Shown here piece by piece: positions 27,690 through 41,459 of a stretch of 64,000 bases of DNA; position 1 is the first letter of the stretch, and each line of letters starts with the position of its first letter. The notes under the pieces are model-generated. The model saw only the letters and a program-made list of their open reading frames with translations. It was not told the origin of the DNA and did not search any database. Origin of the DNA: Amanita rubescens (Eukaryota; Basidiomycota; Agaricomycetes; Agaricales; Amanitaceae); NCBI GenBank assembly GCA_015039365.1, contig WION01000166.1:1-64000 (forward strand), given 5' to 3'. The translations under genes were made by a program, and so were the position numbers.

Positions 27690-29224
27690 GTTTAATCCAG
27701 GTTCATGTCATCGACGACTTGATGTTTGTTGGCACTTTTCTTCCCCGATGTCTTGGCTTGTTTCACAGAGGAGTTAACGGATGGCCGAACTGAGGTACTT
27801 GGCGTCGTAAAAGATACAAGGCCACTTGCAGATGAAGCCTCTTCATGACCCTGTTGTTCCACAGGAGAGGCAATCTCGGGATGGCTACTATTCGAGAATG
27901 GAGGTGTGGTAGGTGAAGCGTTACTCGAGGATGCAGTTGTGGATGACTTTCAGACCAAGCATGAGCTTACGAATGTGAACAAGACGGAGAAAATATATTA
28001 CCTCGGAAATCCGCTGCTGCTCATCTACAGGGGGTCCATTGTCGAAATGTTTCAAGAGTCCTCGTTACTGTCGGATTTTTGCCCCTCCTCGTTCCTCGTG
28101 TAGTCATCGATAGAAAGACGTATTGAACGGGTGTCAATGGGCTCATACGAAGGCATGAGTACTTTAATCCTGTCCGCGTAAATCTGATAAAACTGACTGG
28201 CATGAACATCGTGGGGAGAAGAGAAAGGAAACATACATACCTTTTTCTGTGAATAACTTGCAGTAATTGAATATGTACATAAAGATATTCTCATGAGGAC
28301 AACCGTGCCTGTTCGCAGTTTATCGTATTCAAGCCACGGCGGCGTAAGTTTTCCTTCTTCGTCGACAATATACCTTTGGACTAGTTTAGCCAAGGTATGG
28401 TTGAACAGAGCACCACCGTAATCGGAAAGAAAGCGAGGATCATAGGTGTCGTGACGGGCAGCGACATCCTGGGTTGAATCGATCACAGCAGGGGCAGACA
28501 CCATAATTCTTGGTTGCTTTACGTTTCGCGATCATCTCTTCGATCCAGATGACGTGGAAGAGGAAGACGGTACAACATATTTGGGACCCATGTAGACACA
28601 CATCAAATCCGATGCCTTTTCGAGATTTGAAGGGCGTAACCATTCCACCGCCTCAACGTTCTGAAGAGGATGCGTAAGCGTTAGAAAGGTCATCAAAAGT
28701 CTAAAGCACCTGATTGTTTTCCAGCTCTAGTTGTTCATCATCAACGCGAATGGAGTTCAGGACGGTTAGTTGATAGTCCCACAAGTACATAAGATCCCTC
28801 GGAGCGTCAGTGGGAACTTTAAGCATAAACACGTCCTTGACTCGGGTGTCGTCGCTGATGAGATTATAGTTCTAATTGAGTCCAAAATTAACATCACAGT
28901 CCGACGGCTGACGGAGAAAAGAAGTAGACGAACGGAATGACGTGCCAATGGGCTTACCATGGATGGTTATCGTCGTCCCAATATTCAAGCTCGTTTGAAT
29001 AGCATACGAAACGAGTGGCATTCATGCTCGGATACTCGGTTGAAAGAAAAGATCAAAGGTTTATTTGAAAAAGAGATCCCAGGGACGTCGATAACGTGCT
29101 TAAAAATGTAGCTGACCATCTCGTCAGACGAGAGTGGGTACGCGTGGCATTGTACGAGAAAATGTGTATCGCACATCACATGATTTACATGCAAATGTAG
29201 GTCCGTGTGCAGTGGCAGCAGCAT
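27690..29224 (-). pseudogene. Uncharacterised agaricomycete gene, interrupted by a stop and a transposon
   Basis: A minus-strand multi-exon gene. Readable segments are MNATRFVCYSNELEYWDDDN, NLISDDTRVKDVFMLKVPTD, NVEAVEWLRPSNLEKASDLM then CVYMGPKYVVPSSSSTSSGS, and PAVIDSTQDVAARHDTYDPR...YGGALFNHTLAKLVQRYIVD. A Ser/Thr-rich tail ends VVDDMNLD at 27690. This fits an agaricomycete family of unknown function, from memory. An in-frame TGA at 28532-28534 lies between SGSKR and SRNVKQPRIM with the frame kept on both sides, as a CGA to TGA change would leave. The 5' end coincides with the target duplication of the Ulp1-hAT element (29217-29224). It may therefore be a recent pseudogene; intron joins are approximate. 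Confidence 0.5.
29217..29224. repeat. Target-site duplication, left (AGCAGCAT)
   Basis: Eight bases, identical to 41444-41451. They flank the outer hAT-type element; 8-bp duplications are the hAT hallmark. Confidence 0.88.
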
Positions 29225-29854
29225 TAGGGCTGCGGGAAAAACCTCCGCTGCCTAATTCCCCGGTAATGTACCAGTGAGACCAGAACCGATGAGTTTTTCC
29301 CCTGTTACTTACGGGTAAATTACCTCCACGGGATCATGCACGTGACCAAAAATCGCCATGTTTTCCCAAAAAATTTCCGCCGTGTGGGTAACGGAAGAGA
29401 AGAGAAATACATGTTAGATATTTAGGTAGAAGTTGTTATCTATGATACCCTCTTGTTGTGGTGAGATAGCAAGCGTGGCTGACTTGTTCTCTGTAGTTAA
29501 TTTTTTGGCCGGCCGAGTATCAGATAGAATCCCGCTCAGGAGTTTGCAGTCGAAATCGATCAGCGAACTCGTTCGCGCCTCGAGTGCAACTTCCGGAGAT
29601 ACCTCAGCCTCATTCCCATCTCCAGGTTTGTCATCCAACCAGCTATCATCTTCCTCGTCCTTGTTCTCGCGCAATTTTTCATTTAACTTCTTTCGGGCAT
29701 CAATGTAAAGCATTCTCGGGACTGGAAGAGAGTTTGCCCGCGCCTGAGGACTGGTTGAGCACGAAAGATTCAAGATAGGCATTGTACACCGAGAACGTAC
29801 TTTCTGTTCCGTTTGATAATATTGTCGTATTTTGGTCATATTTACCATTGAGCT

Positions 29855-31710
29855 CATCAGGTTTTCGGCCATTTCCGCTCGGGCCGCTTAACGCTCGGCC
29901 AAACAACGCCTTGGCCACTCCGCTCCGGCGACGCCAGCTTTGATCGCTCGCGCTCTGGCGACGTCAGCTCTACCCTCTCTAGCTCTGGCCACCACCGCTC
30001 TCACCGCTCTCGCTCGGGGACTCCAATGCCGCACGCTTTTGATGGTGAGCATTATCTCCCACCCCTTCATTTACTGCTGACGTCCCTAATCACTTGGCAG
30101 CCAACGCCACACTCCTCTCTGCTGCTCTCCTTCGCTGCCGACGCCCGCATGCCACTCCTACTGCCACGCCCAGTGCTCCAATCCGCAATGAACGACAGCT
30201 CACTGTTCCCACCATTGCTAAGTCCTCAACGCCCATATCATCCCAGGCCTTCCACGCCCGCTGATTCCGGCCGCCTATGCCCCTACCATCCGCCTAAAGG
30301 TAAGCGATAACACACATACACGCGATAAAATTACAATAATGGATCCTCTGTGAAGCGTGTGGGATGATCAGATGCATATGCCTCATCGTACAACCTCGAG
30401 TCGGAAATGTACCATCCGCTCCTCAAGAGTGACGTAGAAAAGAGCTCGTTCAGGGTCTCGACGCGGCAAATGCACGGCCACAAGGAGGGTAGGATATTAT
30501 GAGCGTGACAGACAGTCATACTCGGAGAACAGGTCAGCAAAGTCGTGCAAATGCGAGGGAATATCGAAGAGTTGAAGCTGGGTCCCAGAGTCATAGAACA
30601 GTCAGCGACTGAGGGAGAACAGAGCTCGCTGCGGTCTGTGTTTATTTATTTTTTTCAAGGTAGATTTCCCTCCTTTCCGGCAGATATATGCTGCAATTGC
30701 TCACACCAGCATCCCGCAGTCAGATCGAAATGGAAGATGTGGGTGAGATGAACGAGTTTCGGGGAAATGTACCAACAAATCTACCGTATACTCGTAGTTG
30801 CCAGGACTTGTGCGAAATTTATTAGTGTGTGCAAATACCACCAAACAAATGGAATGATGACATCACCCGTCAGCGCGGCTTGAGCCATGCTCATCCTTTC
30901 CCTCTCCTCCCATCTCCTCCATACAACTTTCCTCCAAAACCAATCCACCGACCCGCCAATAGCCGATAGGCACAATATAACGAGAAAACGGTGCGTAGTA
31001 ACGATGCGAACCGGTTGCGAATCTCAGTCCTCTACTCACGTTGCAGCAAATACGTCGTTGCCTGATTAATGTTTAATTATCAAGGGGCAAGAATAGGATG
31101 AATCTCAGCCGTTTCGCTGTCAGCCACGCTTAGGTGAGTACGGGCTAAACTTCACTGCGTTCTCACCTGCTGAATCGTCGGAGATGCATTCCCAACTCTC
31201 AGAACGTCCGTATCAACGGTCGGGATTGCATGTACGTATTTCAATCTCACTATATGCGCCATTTTCACTTTCTGTGCGTCCCATTATGTTCACCCCATCG
31301 CAGTCACCGCTTGCAACAACCATTCGCCATCCAAGTCCCTCGCTCTCGAACGCTTTCAGTCACCCTCAACAACCACTCTGCTTTCTCGCAAAGATTCCAA
31401 ATCGTTACCATGCTACTTCACAATCTTTCTCTTTCCCATACACGTCGCATTGCTTCTCATGTTTTTGTGACCGCTACTGTAATACAACGCTGGGCAATAA
31501 AATTTATTTTTTGAACTATTTTGAACTGCTTTGCTAAGCCACGAAACCACTCTCAGAGCGGGTTGAAGTACTCTCAGAGCGGGAAAATCGACTCTCAGAG
31601 CGATGTACCTCGCCTAAAAAAGTGGTGAGGTGCTCTGACCGCTCTGACCGCTCTGGCTGCTCTGGAAAGCGCCGAGAGTGGCCAGAGCAGAACATGCCGA
31701 AAACCTGATG
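29855..31710. mobile_element. 1.86-kb TIR element of unassigned superfamily
   Basis: Both ends read CATCAGGTTTTCGGC (perfect 15-bp inverted repeats), followed by weaker matches up to GCTC-GGCC. It is flanked by CT (or GCT if the last base is shared), so the target duplication is 2-3 bp. Excision joins ...RANMMVS to SMVNMTKIRQYYQTE in the outer transposase with the spacing expected for hAT C-termini. Subterminal regions are rich in CGCTCTG(A/G)C repeats, and three 21-bp tandem repeats lie near the right end. No transposase is recognisable inside, so it is probably non-autonomous. A 2-3 bp duplication plus subterminal repeats hints at a CACTA or Harbinger-like group, but the ends are not diagnostic. 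Confidence 0.7.
31549..31612. repeat. Three 21-bp tandem repeats (ACTCTCAGAGCG...)
   Basis: Units begin at 31549, 31570 and 31591, each with ACTCTCAGAGCG plus a variable tail. The core CTCTCAGAGC is nearly palindromic. They are followed by GCTCTGACC repeats (31631-31660). This looks like a subterminal transposase-binding region. Confidence 0.7.
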
Positions 31711-32278
31711 CTGACCATCATGTTGGCACGGAGAGGCGATGTAAGCCAGGTAAAAGATGAGACAGTCCGTTCTTCAGGCATGGAATTGACTCGAACTGCG
31801 AATATTTTGCGAGCCAAAACCTAATAAGCGCTTGTTACTAGTACCGTTTTAGACGAGCGAAACTACTAGTAAACTCACCGGTAAAATTTTCGCAAACTCT
31901 GTTCCCTCAATACTAGCCCACCAATGAAGGGGAGATTGACTATCCTCTATTACCGTGTCGTAGGGGTACTGTTGCCGGGCATATCTCTGAAATTCCGTCA
32001 AAAACATCTTTGAAAAATCCGTTCCGCGATTCTTCCACAAAATGAGGCTGGCTTTAGATCCATGGTTAATCTTAGGCATGTGCACGGGTAACCCGCGGGT
32101 AAGTCATGTGTTACCCCGACCCGTACCCGTAAAAACCCGTACCCGTTGACCCGCGGGTTAGAGCGCTACGGGTTGCGCGGGTGCGGGTGCGGGTGCGGGT
32201 AATGGACGGGTTTGCTGGTATATTTAGTGTATTTCACTATAACTATTTACAGGTATGGAGTAGTATTACTATATTTCA

Positions 32279-35200
32279 CTATATAACTATTTTATCCCAT
32301 CCGTCTCCCAAATCTACATGTTTCTCTTCTTCAACCTCTTCCATGGCGGAGACTGTCTTGATATCTGTGCTTTTGATCAGCCCTAGGTGGCTCCAGACAC
32401 CCAAGCATATAAGTGCTCGGGAGCCTTGCACGCCGAGCCGACTGCGGACGTGTGAAATGACCAAGCGGCCACGGCTGAATAGTCGTTCTACTTCAATTGA
32501 TGTTGCTGTGAAATCCAGTGAATCAAGGAAAAGATATGATAATATAAACTAACCAGGTATGGCCAAATAATCTAAAGCCATGCGTGATGTTGGAATATTT
32601 CGGGCCGTGCCGAGCGCGCCGCTCGCTTTCCCCATTTGGTACATCCGCATGGCATCCACATTGCACAATCTACCTACGTATATAGCCCGTAAATACCCTG
32701 TATCCCCCATCCGTTTGCCCCAATGTCCACCGGGGCCCAAACTGACCCCTCTTTGTCGTTGTGACGCCGTCGGGATTTCCAACACAAACGGATCGTGCCC
32801 AGCTAGCGCCGGGGGGCATCATATAATACCCTAGCAGGTGGCTGTGCTAAAGCCCACCCTCGTTGACTCGCCGCCGTTGCACGTGTACCGTTCACCGCTG
32901 CCGAACCTCCCAAGTCGCTTGTCGAAGCGCCACCGTCGTATCCGATCGTTGATCACCAATCGCCGTCATCGTCGTTGTTTGCCACAGGGGGCCGAAGCCC
33001 TGAAATCACCGCCATTGCCGCCGTCGTCATCGATCACTGATCGTCATCACTGCCGTTCCCCGAAGCCGCCGCCAATCGCTGATCCAATCGTTGTTGCCAT
33101 CACCTTGCCCATCGCCAAGATCGCCGCCGATCGTTGATCCTATCGTCGTCGCCGTTACACGTTGCCGTTGCCGCCGTCTATTTTTAGCAATTGATTCTCA
33201 TCGTCGTCGTCGTCGTTATCTGCCACAGGGGGCCGAAGCCCTGAATCGTCGTTATCATCGCCGTCGTCGTCGTCGTCATCTGCCACAGGGGGCCGAATCC
33301 CTAGTACATTGATCTATCACCATCGCTGTCGTTATCTGCCGCCGAGGGCCGAATCTCGCCGATCACCGATCCCATCCACGTCGTTGCACGTTGCCGTTAC
33401 CGCCATCAATCTTTTCTCGCACACTCGTTATCGCCCCCGCTCATCGCCGTCACTCGCTTATCGTCGCCCACCCCATTATTGACCCTGTCAAGATTCCAGG
33501 AGTGCCCGCCCGCTCTCACGTCGCTCGCGCTGCGCTCGCAGGAGTGTGTTGGAATATTTCGGGCCGTGCCGAGCGCGCCGCTCGCTTTCCCCATTTGGTA
33601 CATCCGCATGGCATCCACATTGCACAATCTACCTACGTATATAGCCCGTAAATACCCTGTATCCCCCATCCGTTTGCCCCAATGTCCACCGGGGCCCAAA
33701 CTGACCCCTCTTTGTCGTTGTGACGCCGTCGGGATTTCCAACACGTGAAAGGCGAGGATAAGAAGCCCGTCGCTCATACCACCACGATATGGGGTCCCTA
33801 ACATCTTCCGGATCGCTGTCGAGGTAGCGCTTGAGCTCGGTTGAGGCCTGGAGCTTAGGCAAGGGGGCGAGGGATGGCAGGTCATCAAAAGGGTTCGGGC
33901 GCTTTGAGCTAGCAGCGGTTGAACCCTTCGTAGAAGTGTTAGTTGCTGGATAAAGAAGATGGAGTCCAACGCACTTCTTTCCGCTTCTCTCTCTCTCTCT
34001 CCACTATGTCGGGATCCTCTGTGACGTCCAGGTTTTTGTAGTTCCGTTCGTATTCTACCTCAACGATTTCACGCGCAGTTTCGATCCACTCTAAGTCCCA
34101 TCCGGCAGATCGAAAATATGCTAACTTGTGGCGTGGGTGTAGTACTTTCATTTGCATCAGTTTCGTGAATTGATAAATGTTAAAACTAACTGACTCATTG
34201 CGATGCGGTAGACTTCGACATCATCTGTCTTGGAGTAGTAGCGGTCAAGGGTCTTCCTGGCAAGGGAAATTCCGGAGCGAATAGGTGCGGGTATATTTAA
34301 ATCGTCTTCGTACTTCTCAAACTCGTTGTGTATGTGATCCATGGCCGGAAGTACGTGGGCGAGGTGAGGTTTTGCACGGGAAAAGTATTGAGTAGCATCC
34401 TTGAGGATCTAACATTCAGGTCGCATGCACGTCAGGTCCAGATTTGGGTGGGCGCGGGACAGGAGTTGGTCGATCATGCCGGATAGAAGTTGTGAATGCA
34501 GTGGTGCACGACAGGACATATGAGCGAGTGACGCCGATTAGATAAGCATTCTGCACTCACCTCAAGCACGTTGCAAAGGTGCTTGGCCAAGTCCCACTCT
34601 TGCGGATCCATCTCATAATCACGTATGTTGTTTTTTCTGTCAGATGTCATCTTATCTATCGCTTCTCGATATTTTAGTGCAAAATGTAACATATCAAAGG
34701 TAGAATTCCAGCGTGTAGCAACATCACGCGGCATCAAGCGGAAATCAAGGCCACACTCGGTGACAGATTGTTTCCAGGCAGGGCCAAGGCTTGTAGTGGA
34801 ATTGATTATCTTGAAGGACAGTTTCCGGAGCTAGAAAGGAGCACGGTAAGCATGCAATAGCAGGTCGCGGTTCCAGCAGTGATGTTCACCTTGGACAGGA
34901 CCTGTCGGACAGGGTGGGTCGCTTCATTCAAGGTTACACGCTCCTCCCGGCCGAGATACAAACGCTCATCAACCCAGTCCTTCTCTGGATTGCCCGGGTC
35001 TGTATTTTCCGTTTCCGGATCAGAATCTTCATCCTCTGCCACGTCATCGTCTACATCGCCTCCTGGCTCAACTTCGTCTTCTGCCTCAACATCTATCGCA
35101 GCAGCAACTCGCTCAGGCTCATCAAACTGTTTAACAACGGACTTGGCAACCAGATTTACGATATGCAAGAAGCATCGTGAACGATTGACTACTGAGTACT

Positions 35201-36559
35201 CAGGGAGACGGTGTGCAAGTTCCGCAACCATAGTGTCATTATTTGTCGCGTTATCACAAGTCATCGAGAGAATCTGGACAGGTAAAGATAAGTAGTTTAC
35301 ATTCACTTGTGTAAACATACTGACTTTATCAGCAATTCCAAAATTATTCAGAACCCCAGTCAAGACTCGAGCCAAATTTATGCCGGTGTGCGAAATGGGT
35401 ACTTGGACGATGTCCAGTACCATCCACAGAGGTTTTCCCGAATACACAAGGTGCACGGTGATGGCGACGAATGCTCGATGGTTCGGTGATGTCCAGGCAT
35501 CTGTAGCGAAGCTCAAACGGCCTTCGTATTTCTTCATAATACAGATAAGTCAATCTTAGCTTGTGGTAATGATGCAATAACTGACCATTAACATAGCAGC
35601 AATACGTTGCCGCGTCCGAGCAAAGATCAAACGAACATCGCGTGAAACTGTCCAGGGAGAGGGTATGTAATAATACGGTCGACCCGTCTTCATCAGGAAC
35701 CTGAAGCCGCGGTCGTTAACAATCGCAAATGGGCGATTATTCTCGGCAACCCAGCGCACAATTTCGGCTCTTCAATAATTCAAATCAGATACCAGCGAGA
35801 CTGAACTATTGCCGCTCTCACCTTATCTCGGCTTTGGTCAGCTGAACATTAGAATAGGTCTCTTTACCTTTCCCGCTACGTTCAAAATGGGAAGTAATTG
35901 TCCCGTCACGCACTGTTGCAATCACTTCACGGGCCTCCTTCAAGTTGTTGGCATCGAATGTTTCCTGTACAACTTCAGGTTTCCAGCAGCGCTCAGCATG
36001 TTTCTTGAGGTTTCCAGTCGAATTCGTGTCACGTTTGTCCAAATAACGCCGGATTCTTTTAGTACAGCCTTTATTTGCACAAACGAAATCATGGAACGGG
36101 CGCCGACCATCACGGCCGATTTTAGGGATAGGGAGGTAGAATGCATAAACGGGCGATGTCCACTTGCATCGCAGACGTTCTATTCATGGTCAGTCGCTAA
36201 TCTATTCAACCACAATGAAACTTACCTAGCATTGCCTCGTCTTTTGCGCGTATTACGTCCGAGTCCATCGTCTCATCAAGGTCAACAAGGTCAATCACCT
36301 GTGGCACGCTGGGGGTGGACAGTGTCGCCTGTGGTGTGTTAGAGACTCCATCAGATGAGACAAGCTCGTCATCGGGAGATGGGGTAGGAGGATCTTCAGT
36401 TGGTGAGGCCCTGCGCTCCCCATTTTCTTTTTTCTTTTTTCTAAAAACATTCTGGCTAGCATTTGCCGGTGTATCCCCGAGCTCCGCAGCTTTACGCTTG
36501 AAGCTCGGTCTAATAGTACGGCCAGATCGAGATGTTGCTTCGGTTGTTGATGGGTTCAT
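32279..36559 (-). pseudogene. hAT transposase of the inner element, broken by a TRIM
   Basis: A multi-exon minus-strand gene starting near MNPSTTEATSRSGRTIRPSF. In order: a disordered basic/acidic N-terminus; a BED finger (FVCANKGC...LKKHAERCW); AEIVRWVAENNRPFAIVNDR; the RNase-H-like start KKYEGRLSFATDAWTSPNHR; TCDNATNNDTMVAEL; RCFLHIVNLVAKSVV; an acidic insert; DVATRWNSTFDMLHFA; VLHPRHKLAYFRSAGW; and the dimerisation domain DPISWWYERRASYPRLS. A 1156-bp LTR-type element interrupts the gene there. Beyond it the frame resumes RMALDYLAIPATSIEVERLF then SRGRLVISHVRSRLG, across one intron. Without the insertion it looks complete, so this was an autonomous hAT until recently. Confidence 0.85.
32588..33743. 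mobile_element. TRIM-like LTR element (1156 bp)
   Basis: Two 197-bp direct repeats (32588-32784 and 33547-33743) begin TGTTGGAATATTTCGGG and end CGGGATTTCCAACA, the TG...CA form of LTRs. By eye they appear identical. A 5-bp target duplication CGTGA lies at 32583-32587 and 33744-33748. The 762-bp interior has no reverse transcriptase, integrase or gag. It is made of CGTCGTC-type simple repeats and several copies of CTGCCACAGGGGGCCGAA. No clear primer-binding site or polypurine tract is visible. Small size, LTRs and lack of genes define a terminal-repeat retrotransposon in miniature. Confidence 0.85.
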
Positions 36560-38878
36560 GAGTCGCAACGAAAAGCACACATTTTTTTTTTCACATAATT
36601 TATATACTTTTGAGTGCTGATTTACGGTATAGAATAAATGACCCTTGATCCATAGCTTGAAACAGTGGTAGCAATCATAAGACTAAAGCATAGTTTCAGC
36701 TTAAACTAGCTCAGGACGGGGATGATGTTTGGCAGCACTACTAGTAAACTGCCTTATCATATTTGGATCCGGGCGCCGCAGGGGCACAGCGCTAAGCACT
36801 TATAGTACAATTTACGAACAGTAAAAGTGTCATGAGAGTTGCGCGGCAGCACTGCGCACAGTGCTTGTCCTGGCCGGCGGGTTGCCACGGGTACACGGGT
36901 CACAGGTCCGTGACCCGAACCCGTACCCGCTGTGACCCGTACCCGTAACCCGTCGCGGGTATGGCTACCCGTGCACATGCCTAGTTAATCTCGTTCACGG
37001 CGACGTCCATCAGAAACATGGCCACTTGTCGAAAGGCTTTAGGGTGCTTGATCCCGGTGAGATCGATTTGTGATGACTGTTCGAGTGGATCTGTTTTGAA
37101 AAGATCTGGGCTGAGGTGAAGGTATACTAAAGACGTCACGTAGTAAGCAACGTGAGTCCAGTAATGTTAGGTATGAAGTTTACTTACCTGGATCAAGGTA
37201 GGCTCCTGCGTAGTATAGATCAGCAGCTGTAGATATTCGCCCCTCAACAAATAATTCACGATGCCGATGATTCAGAATGCCGTAGAGTTTGTGACCCACG
37301 TCTGCTGGCAGCTCCTGCTGGTTGATCAGAGTATCAATGACCGCATCCGTTTCATGGAGGAACGAGTGCCAATAAAGGCAAACGTCACCTGGCAGAGCCT
37401 CGTTCGCTTCAAGACAGGTGATGGCCTTGAGTGCTGGGCTTCCTATGTCGATGAGATGTCGAAGTGCTATCTGGAAAGATGCGGAAGCTTGCGAAGGTCT
37501 TGGAGAGAAATACTTAGAGTAGGACTAGTACAAATCAAGTCAGTCGGAGTCGGTGTCGGCAGTAGTAGCTATGCTTACCTCTAGACTGAATATACCTTGC
37601 TCCACAACCCGTTTGATGACAGGAAGACATTTTTCTAAAGCGCGCGCTGCTCGTATGACTGTACCGAACCTTGTCTTTCCGATGGCTTCAAGTCCGCTAG
37701 TCATTTTCAGTTTGACACGTGCGCTATTGAATTCGGCTGATCCAATGTGAGATCTGTGAAATTTGGCTACTACGGCACGCAGTGTACTGATGACCTGTCA
37801 AAAAACTTCATTTAGCATTGAAAAGTCAGATGAATGTGAGCTCGCACCGGCTTGAAGTGGTCCATTTTCACAATATCCTTCAATGCATTGTTCAAATGGT
37901 GACAGATGTCTGGGACATTGAATATAAGATTGACATGACCTGCAAGTAAATCTCGAGAGAGACGCGTGTTCCCAGTACTGTCGCTCACAATCGCCGCAAA
38001 TCGTGTGGGTCCTATTTCATTGATCACCTAAAAGGGAAAGTGACTGACATAAGCAAGGGACAGCATACGACAGAAGTCTTACCTTCAATGCGAAGTCCCT
38101 AATCCACCGTGCAGAATGTGAAACATCTGTTGCATCACTACCTTCAAGAAGGTACACCTTATGGTTCTCGGTTGATACGTGAATGGTCCAAAAGGCATCA
38201 TGGCCTCGGGTGGTACCGCCATCGTATGACAAGGTCAAGTTATCCTGCTGCTGCAATATTGCAATAGCCTTATTGCGTACGTTAGCCGCTTCTTCCACAA
38301 TTTGCTGCTCTTCTAATTTTGACCGGTTTGCTGGCTTGTATGTAGGACAGAGTAGCTGGAGCACGGATTGCCATTCAGGACGGTTCACAAGGTAAGGTGG
38401 TATTCCGGCGGCGCAAAACAGTTGAACAATTGCCAGATCTGCAGCTTTATGACGCTCCTTCAAGCCTTTATCCTTGAACTTCTCAAATAGGTCCACAGCA
38501 TTATGAACTTCAACGACGGCCTTCTTGACGACCCTCTTTCCACCATCTTTCTGATCGGTGATCACTTCTTCCACTGTCAACTTACGTGAAGGGGCGTTTG
38601 ACGCTGCCACATTACGAGCTTCCTGCTGGAGTGAAATGTCAAGTTTTGTACATTCTGTGGCATGGCGAAGCACCCTGGCAGTGCTTCGCCTTTTCCAGCT
38701 ATACCGACACCCAGTTCCGATACAACGATATTGACGGTCTGAAGGGTCATCTTTGCGATGACATAGCTGTGTCAACCTCTCAAGAATCGGTTTACGAGGA
38801 GCACCTCCCTTTTTCGACTTGACTGGTTTGTCTGAAAGGTCCACAAAGATAGTAGGGTCATATTTTTCGTCCTCTTCG

Positions 38879-39716
38879 TAGTGTTTAAAAGTCCGGTTCG
38901 GTCCGGTTTTTCATGCTATTTTTGGCACAACCGGACCCCGACCGGTTTTTCGGACTTTCCCATTTGGGTGCAACCGGACCAAAACCGGTGAAAACCGGTC
39001 TTGCAGCATTGCCAGCAGGCTGCGCAACCGGTCACAACCGGTTTTCACTCAAAACCGCTTATGTAATAGTGAAAAATCGAATTCTAATAATATATAAGTA
39101 GATGACATCCTAAAATGCCAAAGTAGGCTATGTTGTGGGCATTGAATATGTCATTTTTCAAGATCTGACAGTTACTAAAGGAATACAAGGGGCTGCATGG
39201 GTGGATGCGTAAATGAGCACTTGGATGACATTGCCAAAATTAGCTAAAGTGATGTCATTTGCTAAAATTAGACTAAAGCAAATCAAGCAATGTCATTGAT
39301 ATGTTATATAAGTGCACTAAGCTTATTCTAAGGGGTTTGAGGCTATGTTGTAGGCAATAGATATGTTAATTTTTGAGATCTGACAGTCATTACATTAATA
39401 CAAGGGGTTGCATAGGTGGATGCACAAATGGGAGCCCGGATGACGTTGCTAAAATTAGTGCAACTTCTAATTTTAGTAGCGTCATCCGACTACCCACTGG
39501 CCAATCCACCCCTCTAACCCTCCAAACGGTTGCCGAAAAAGACCGGTTGCAACCGGTTTTGCAACCGGTCTTTGACATCTGGCCCAAATCCTCGGACCGA
39601 AACCGTTTTGAGGCTGTAGGTGGCAAAACCGGCAACCGCGGTTCGGTTGCAACCGATACCGGTCCAGTCCGGTTACCGGTTTTTTGCCGGTCCTTTAACC
39701 GGACTTTAAAACACTA
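38879..39716. mobile_element. 838-bp hAT-type MITE
   Basis: Inverted ends TAGTGTTTAAAAGTCCGG (left) and TAGTGTTTTAAAGTCCGG (right, reverse complement) differ at one base. The 8-bp target duplication CCTCTTCG sits at 38871-38878 and 39717-39724. Both subterminal regions are filled with AACCGGTTTT-type motifs in both orientations, and there is no coding capacity. It splits the acidic region of the outer transposase. Removing it with one target copy restores GEEDEKYDPTIFVDLSDKPV. Confidence 0.9.
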
Positions 39717-41459
39717 CCTCTTCGCCATCCTCATCCTCATTTTCATCAGGCTCTGGCTCAGACTCCAACCCATCTTGCCTGAATAATTCCGTTTTGGCAT
39801 CATCTGGACATGCGCCAGTAGTTTTGTGTGGAGATGGAGCTGCTTGCCCCACAGCATCAGTTACGGTGAGTGGCTTCAGTTTCTTGGCATGAAATAAGGG
39901 GGCTATTGGTATCGGTTCAGGTAGCGGTCGCTTGGTAGTACTCCGTTTCAATGCAGGCTCAAACGAATGGGAGACTGGTACGATTGCTGATTTTAGGGAC
40001 ATTGACGCAGCAACAGGGGTAGTTGCGCCCATTTGAAAACTGTTTGCATGTTTCTAAGCATGATGTAAGTGTATAATGCCGATCTAATCATAATTTAAAC
40101 TTACATTTTTTAGTAGATCTACGAAATCAACAAGGTATGTTACCCTTGTAGCCATTGCTTCAGTACTTGACTGAATAAGAGGGACCTGATTGCCACAGAA
40201 CAGGTGCATGATTGCATTCGTCGCCAAGATTGCGCAAGAAAAGCCATCCTCCTGTCGACTACAGGCCATTGTCGACAATGTGAAGGATCCAGTAACGTGA
40301 TGGGCCAGCCACCATGTTAGCGCCGCATCCAATTCATCTGGTATGCCAAATCCAAGTGTATCTGCGTAGAAAATGCACTTATTGGGTACATCGATAGCAA
40401 CGGCAGTCCAGTGATTTCCCCGTTCTGGACCTGTACCTCCAGGTAATAATGCAGGACCCTCGCCAACCCAAACGGGAATACAAAAGGCTGCGCGCGTAAG
40501 TTTCCCATCTGCTAGCTGTTGCCCGAGCATCTTAAGATGAGCTGCAGACTTGTCAACAAGATAGTTGTCCGGGTTATAGCGGTATTGTCTAATAATCTTC
40601 TCGTTGTAGCAAGAATCAAGTACCTCCACCATCTCGATTGCATAGCTTGATAGTTTGTTGTTCATTACCTGCACCATTATATCAATGTGTCCTGATGAAA
40701 GCCAGTTCCTAGAGCAAAACTGGGCAAGATCTGTGATTGCAAGCCCCCATGATCCATCAAGGCTGTATCCCCACGGAATTTCCGACAGTTTATCAATTAC
40801 GTGGTGAGCACCAATACTTCTCACATACTCCTCAGCTGCAGCCCATTGAACCTTGATCGCAGAGACAGCTGGAACCTGCCGCCAATATTCCAGGACCCAG
40901 AACGGCAGTTTTATTAAAGTTAGGTCATCCTTTGGATAATTGAATGACTTGTGGCCGGCACTAATTGCGTCTGGCAGCCCATTGATGCAGGCTTGGAGAT
41001 CATCCAGAGCGGGAGGTGCAAGGCCAGGTATGATGCTCGCTAGCCGAGCATCTATGGAACTCGGAGCCTCCGAGAAAAGATTAGGATTGTTTGATAACGG
41101 CGCATCATCAAGCCTTGAGCCAATGGGAGTACGAAAGCGGATAAGGTTCAGAACGCTAAGCTTCGGATCGGGAAGAATGACAGGTTTAATGGACGGCGGG
41201 ATTTCAAGGGCTGCATGCATGACGAGATTGCGTGCGACGATTTGAGCGGCCCGCCTTGCCCAATTTTTTTGCTCATGATCATGTACAGCTGCGCATACCA
41301 TATATGGTAATACACGTGATATGGTAAATTACTTAGCCTAAATTCGCTCGACGATGGGGGCAGTTAATTACCAGTACGGTACCGGTAAGTATCTGGGGAA
41401 AAACCGGTCCGGGGAAAAACACCCCCTTTTTCCCGCAACCCTAAGCAGCATCACAAGGT

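Follow-up and report, generated by a model that had tools for sequence, protein, structure and literature searches.

Ulp1-type (C48) proteases are known as passengers of several kinds of mobile element. In plants they occur in MULE and CACTA transposons such as KI-MULE and Cactavine, where the available part of the source presents them as captured sequences (PMC2528002), and the accessible text on oomycete Cryptons likewise reports a C48 peptidase in these elements (PMC3212892). A related case is that of the TET/JBP genes, which, according to the accessible sections of Kojima 2025, pass between fungal DNA transposon superfamilies including hAT7 (PMC12730594). Here we analyze a 64,000-nucleotide stretch of the Amanita rubescens genome (assembly GCA_015039365.1, contig WION01000166.1, positions 1 to 64,000; hereafter the window), which contains a hAT transposon whose gene encodes a putative Ulp1-type protease and a transposase, probably made as one spliced protein. 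Ulp1 passengers of MULE, CACTA and Crypton elements were already known; a hAT with an Ulp1-type protease appears to be a new member of this kind. The original prediction, drawn from the letters of the window alone, had named the plant cases correctly and had pointed to no described hAT fused to Ulp1; we found none in the open-licence literature searched. The terms Ulp1, peptidase, protease and SUMO gave no hits in the main text of PMC12730594 or in the accessible portion of PMC6416283.

The window element and the plant elements are both DNA transposons that enclose an Ulp1-type protease, but their transposases belong to different superfamilies. In the grapevine MULEs, as far as the available text covers them, ULP lies downstream of the transposase open reading frame in either orientation (PMC2528002), whereas in the window the protease lies upstream in the same orientation, and the predicted splicing brings it into frame. 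Cryptons also combine a C48 peptidase with mobility, but the same partial source describes them as tyrosine recombinase elements, not DDE/hAT transposons (PMC3212892). With the TET/JBP transposons the element would share a tag-removing enzyme common to several superfamilies, thought in the accessible sections to aid escape from silencing (PMC12730594); TET/JBP enzymes, however, target DNA methylation rather than proteins. Set beside fungal hATs of the BED/DUF659 type, the element has the same 8-bp duplications, short inverted ends, BED finger, DUF659-type core and C-terminal ER motif region, and differs in its extra N-terminal C48 protease. A hAT lineage that keeps an Ulp1 protease in frame with its transposase would tie the protease to transposition itself, and the parallel to transposon-borne TET/JBP enzymes suggests a possible second eraser against silencing.

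The element is bounded by 17-bp inverted ends and an exact 8-bp duplication that enclose both domains, as had been proposed from the sequence (Table 1). We searched the home genome (75.7 Mb, 786 contigs) for the exact 17-bp end, a count that covers copies with unmutated ends, and found 18 occurrences forming nine facing pairs; a reversed control pattern gave none. All nine pairs, the window included, carry an exact 8-bp duplication and all nine duplications differ; such duplications and short terminal inverted repeats common to copies are features of hATs. The eight other copies measure about 1.1 kb in seven cases and 4.7 kb in one (L009). At either end they are 81-84% identical to the window element, and none gave a protease match. 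A sister family represented by deletion copies is what they resemble, which indicates that such ends are recognized and moved.

The protease exon is predicted to encode an Ulp1-type cysteine protease with a full His-Asp-Gln-Cys set, which may cleave SUMO conjugates or precursors. The usable ATG of its frame lies at 41220, and 372 residues are encoded up to a GTAAGT at 40104. The catalytic residues named in the original prediction hold: His270, Asp287 and Cys329, together with the oxyanion Gln323 in the Ulp1 spacing Q-x5-C, are invariant in all five aligned sequences, two of which (the window and P0002) are close relatives. The repeats L040-L042 do not enter this count; in L041 the protease frame stops just before the Asp region and resumes in another stretch. 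The window protease aligned to the Ulp1 structure 1euv (E 0.2), and its predicted structure has an Ulp1-like fold, to which ubiquitin- and NEDD8-specific enzymes also belong; viral members are among the structural matches. Against the Pfam C48 profile (cut-off 20.7 bits), the proteases of the second element L029, described below, and of L041 score above threshold (23.7 and 30.4 bits), while P0001 gave no match. In an NCBIfam scan, the one item of note was that L029 weakly matched XopD (E 0.043).

Downstream on the same strand follows the BED-finger hAT transposase, as predicted. Searches with P0003-P0006 (tblastn) placed the BED finger, assigned by eye, the DUF659-type core and the hAT C-terminal region in order. 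The motifs SYDGGT, VSDSTG and PEERTVS are present, and we take them to be the catalytic and hAT signatures of this part. Among the relatives scanned, P0003, P0004 and P0006 matched DUF659 with E values of 3.9e-8 to 8.7e-5, below the curated cut-off, and P0004 matched Dimer_Tnp_hAT at E 0.14; the window pieces matched no hAT model in Pfam. The coding sequence is broken by three nested insertions, which the original prediction had overlooked. Without them the element would measure about 4.6 kb, and by the same arithmetic L029 without its own insert has about the same size. The window element is an autonomous-type hAT that is now broken.

A second bounded element in the same genome repeats this arrangement. 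The protease frame found three places in the home genome, namely the window, contig C545 and a fragment on C146. The C545 element (L029) has its own ends and duplication and encodes protease then transposase in the order of the window, with 39% identity in the protease (residues 34-409 of 414) and about 45% in the transposase. A search with the hAT exon gave nine matches, including the window and C545, again adjoining the protease. The L029 copy is itself damaged, since an in-frame stop interrupts its coding sequence and a further insertion is nested in it (duplication ACGGGACC). In its family, the C146 copy retains both ends (duplication CAAAGCAC), but its protease exon is interrupted by an insertion and part of its interior is deleted, C230 has both ends (duplication TTTTCCAC) and no protease match between them, and C105 carries a single end without a partner; all three complete end pairs have 8-bp duplications. 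The suggested search for further copies produced L029 with ends of its own, and no protease match in the eight copies that share the ends of the window element. Two L029-family deletion copies (L051 and L053) have identical internal junctions, which may mean that a non-autonomous form has multiplied.

Outside Amanita, protease and transposase occur in one chain in P0006 from the coral fungus Artomyces pyxidatus, a hypothetical protein of 1377 aa with an N-terminal protease, a linker and then a hAT transposase, which is the combination that a search of other basidiomycetes had been proposed to find. A search with the hAT part gave four hits among the best 7995 candidates by shared words, the window frame gave one (P0002) among 3846 candidates, and the L029 protease part gave one (P0001) among 7719 candidates of about 605-1925 aa. 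Since this last search missed P0006, its sensitivity is limited and absence elsewhere says little. P0002 (378 aa, 89%, eight member sequences, one contig) indicates that other data contain either a close relative or the species itself. In a tree of eight sequences and 498 columns, the window and L029 grouped with support 95 and P0003-P0006 with support 83, while the distant hATs L031 and L034 sat on a long branch. With the root on that branch, the protease occurs in each of the two inner groups and, on these few sequences, was probably present in their common ancestor. In P0003-P0005 (from Infundibulicybe, Pholiota and Pluteus) the protease has been either lost or merely missed in the gene model.

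Protease and transposase very probably belong to one element; the idea that they are chance neighbors was rejected because a second bounded element and P0006 exist. How they are joined required a correction. The 65-nt intron originally proposed (40104-40040) leads out of frame to a stop 26 codons on and was rejected, whereas a 51-nt intron with the same donor (GTAAGT...TAG) joins the two parts in frame. The original claim accordingly stands for the protease as part of the hAT element, supported by L029, P0006, the fold and the residues, and falls for the intron; fusion at the RNA level is what the frames and splice sites suggest. The L029 donor after the protease, also GTAAGT, lies within one codon of the window position, and an AAG acceptor directly before the transposase ATG would give an in-frame intron of 49 nt, a later in-frame acceptor one of 67 nt. 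The remaining four introns, placed by comparing the window with L029, fall at matching positions and measure 50-61 nt. Synonymous sites are saturated between the two elements, for which reason no dN/dS value is given. Window and P0006 also share basic clusters in the linker (KRPLPEP and KRPHPEP). The donor within one codon, the in-frame acceptors, the short gap, the single chain of P0006 and the shared basic linker together favor a fusion, and we are fairly confident, judging from sequence, that one spliced protein is made.

Several observations weigh against this picture. The window protease and P0002 score 14.6 and 15.4 bits, below the C48 cut-off, a C48 scan of the home genome gave seven matches that include neither the window nor L029, and the structure model has a low mean confidence (pLDDT 50.8). 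P0006 is a predicted gene model marked as partial, the deposited models of P0003-P0005, three of the four annotated hAT relatives, contain no protease, and no Ulp1 was detected in the hAT family L031-L033. At the junction itself, the L029 acceptor AAG is of a less usual kind, and an ATG (MDAST) starts the second frame in L029 and lies near its start in the window (MGATT). The last two points would also suit an arrangement in which one element makes two proteins, a protease that terminates within the putative intron and a transposase that begins at its own ATG on a bicistronic RNA or a second transcript. Read past the donor without splicing, both window and L029 meet a stop after six codons and P0002 ends six residues beyond the same place, so that intron retention would yield a free protease; TET/JBP, moreover, are separate genes beside transposases in the accessible sections of Kojima 2025 (PMC12730594). 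However, only some 30-55 nt separate stop and ATG, a perfect donor is held within one codon by two elements whose synonymous sites are saturated, with acceptors in frame, and P0006 was deposited as a single chain. We therefore regard two separate proteins as unlikely.

hAT transposases bind and cut the ends of their elements, leaving 8-bp duplications. In the window element, the product of a single spliced gene would start with an Ulp1-type cysteine protease and continue through a basic linker and a BED finger into a hAT transposase acting in this way. Through the fusion, the protease would come to sit at the element or within the transposase's own complex, where it could strip SUMO or ubiquitin-like tags from silencing factors at the element; its target may alternatively be the transposase itself, tag removal keeping it stable. 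Such deconjugation is, tentatively, the most likely function, and a fused Ulp1-hAT element that deconjugates is on balance the probable explanation as a whole. Proteases of this clan cut after Gly-Gly, and the window enzyme might instead process its own polyprotein and free the transposase, as viral relatives do. A GGxP motif before the BED finger in the window, L029 and P0006 and the viral members among the structural matches would fit such self-processing. But the GG is also kept in P0003 and P0004, which are annotated without a protease, and in the protease-less L031 (GGRGR); DNA binding explains it equally well, which weakens the argument for cleavage and makes self-processing improbable. 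More doubtful still, indeed very unlikely, is that the protease is a functionless fragment captured from the host by transduplication. Plant transposons commonly hold captured fragments, Ulp1 included, according to the available part of PMC2528002. In the mushroom elements, by contrast, order and strand are identical in the window, L029 and P0006, the four catalytic residues are kept, constraint on the protease is close to, though weaker than, that on the transposase, and the protease is similar over most of its length to modules joined to another transposase-like protein (P0001, L041), which is unexpected for a recent host capture.

A homologous N-terminal protease module of about 350 aa is found in P0001 from Marasmius oreades and in own-genome repeats (L040-L042). 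The partner protein there differs from a hAT transposase and is weakly P-element-transposase-like (Pfam E 0.0048, below cut-off). A 6-kb repeat with approximate ends (L062, 2795-8827, with L063 and L064; more than 99.5% identical, two of the three sharing flanks) also has a related Ulp1-type module before a weakly P-element-like protein. These cases fit a module that passes between superfamilies. One might speculate that a tag-removing protease moves between mushroom transposon superfamilies (hAT and P-like), is kept as a transposase N-terminal domain in hAT, brings a SUMO/ubiquitin eraser to insertion sites, and is switched between fused transposase and free protease by splicing or retention of intron 1; as a whole this scenario is rather unlikely. 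The distant hAT family of the same genome, with the three copies L031 (914-4681), L032 and L033, has TAGGG ends, 99.9% identity and different 8-bp duplications. Ulp1 was sought around L031-L036 by profile over open frames of at least 50 aa in the fetched stretches. Near-identical copies of L031-L033 with no protease detected suggest that the protease is not needed for hAT movement generally and would be an aid rather than a necessity.

Table 1. Coordinates of the window element, its nested insertions and the second element L029 (positions in the window unless a contig is named).
Feature	Position	Strand	Remarks
Whole hAT element	29225..41443	-	12,219 bp with its nested insertions; bounded by inverted ends and an exact 8-bp duplication
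5' terminal inverted repeat	41427..41443	-	17 bp, TAGGG(C/T)TGCGGGAAAAA
3' terminal inverted repeat	29225..29241	+	17 bp, TAGGG(C/T)TGCGGGAAAAA
Target-site duplication, copy 1	41444..41451		AGCAGCAT on + strand
Target-site duplication, copy 2	29217..29224		AGCAGCAT, 8 bp, exact
Exon 1	40105..41220	-	372 codons; putative Ulp1-type (C48) protease with N-terminal helical region
Predicted catalytic set of protease	H270 40413-40411; D287 40362-40360; Q323 40254-40252; C329 40236-40234	-	
Predicted intron 1	40054..40104	-	51 nt, GTAAGT...TAG; joins protease to transposase in frame
Transposase start	39717..40053	-	Linker with basic clusters
Nested short element in linker	38879..39716		Ends TAGTGTTT(T/A)AAAGTCCGGTT; duplication CGAAGAGG, 8 bp
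BED-type zinc finger and first putative hAT catalytic region	38083..38878	-	SYDGGT
hAT exons 3-5, second putative catalytic region	37188..38027	-	VSDSTG; exons 38027-37848, 37794-37579, 37524-37188
Start of hAT exon 6	36984..37126	-	Interrupted by nested 4.9-kb element
Nested second hAT-like element	32073..36983	-	Not part of the Ulp1 element; duplication AGATTAAC
hAT C-terminal (dimerisation) region	31710..31817	-	Motif NSMPEERTVS
Third nested insertion	~29855..31710		34-nt inverted ends, no clear duplication; borders approximate
Acidic C-terminal tail of transposase and stop	29414..29854	-	
L029 element	C545, 3246-9495		Own ends TAGGGATGCGCCAAAAA; duplication ATTTGGGC

Some further observations concern the nested insertions and the wider genome. 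The insertion within L029 begins with bases (TAGTGTTGTAAAACGG) similar to those of the short element nested in the window linker. The nested hAT-like element has transposase-like frames of its own and 198-nt direct repeats that lie 959 bases apart and are 100% identical. In L031-L033, a 173-aa open frame without a Pfam match lies upstream of the transposase. PF11976, used to look for host SUMO in the home genome, matched at 24 places, and the best of these matches follow one another in a tandem 228-base spacing as in polyubiquitin; ubiquitin-like domains with this tandem spacing lie on contigs C68 and C331.

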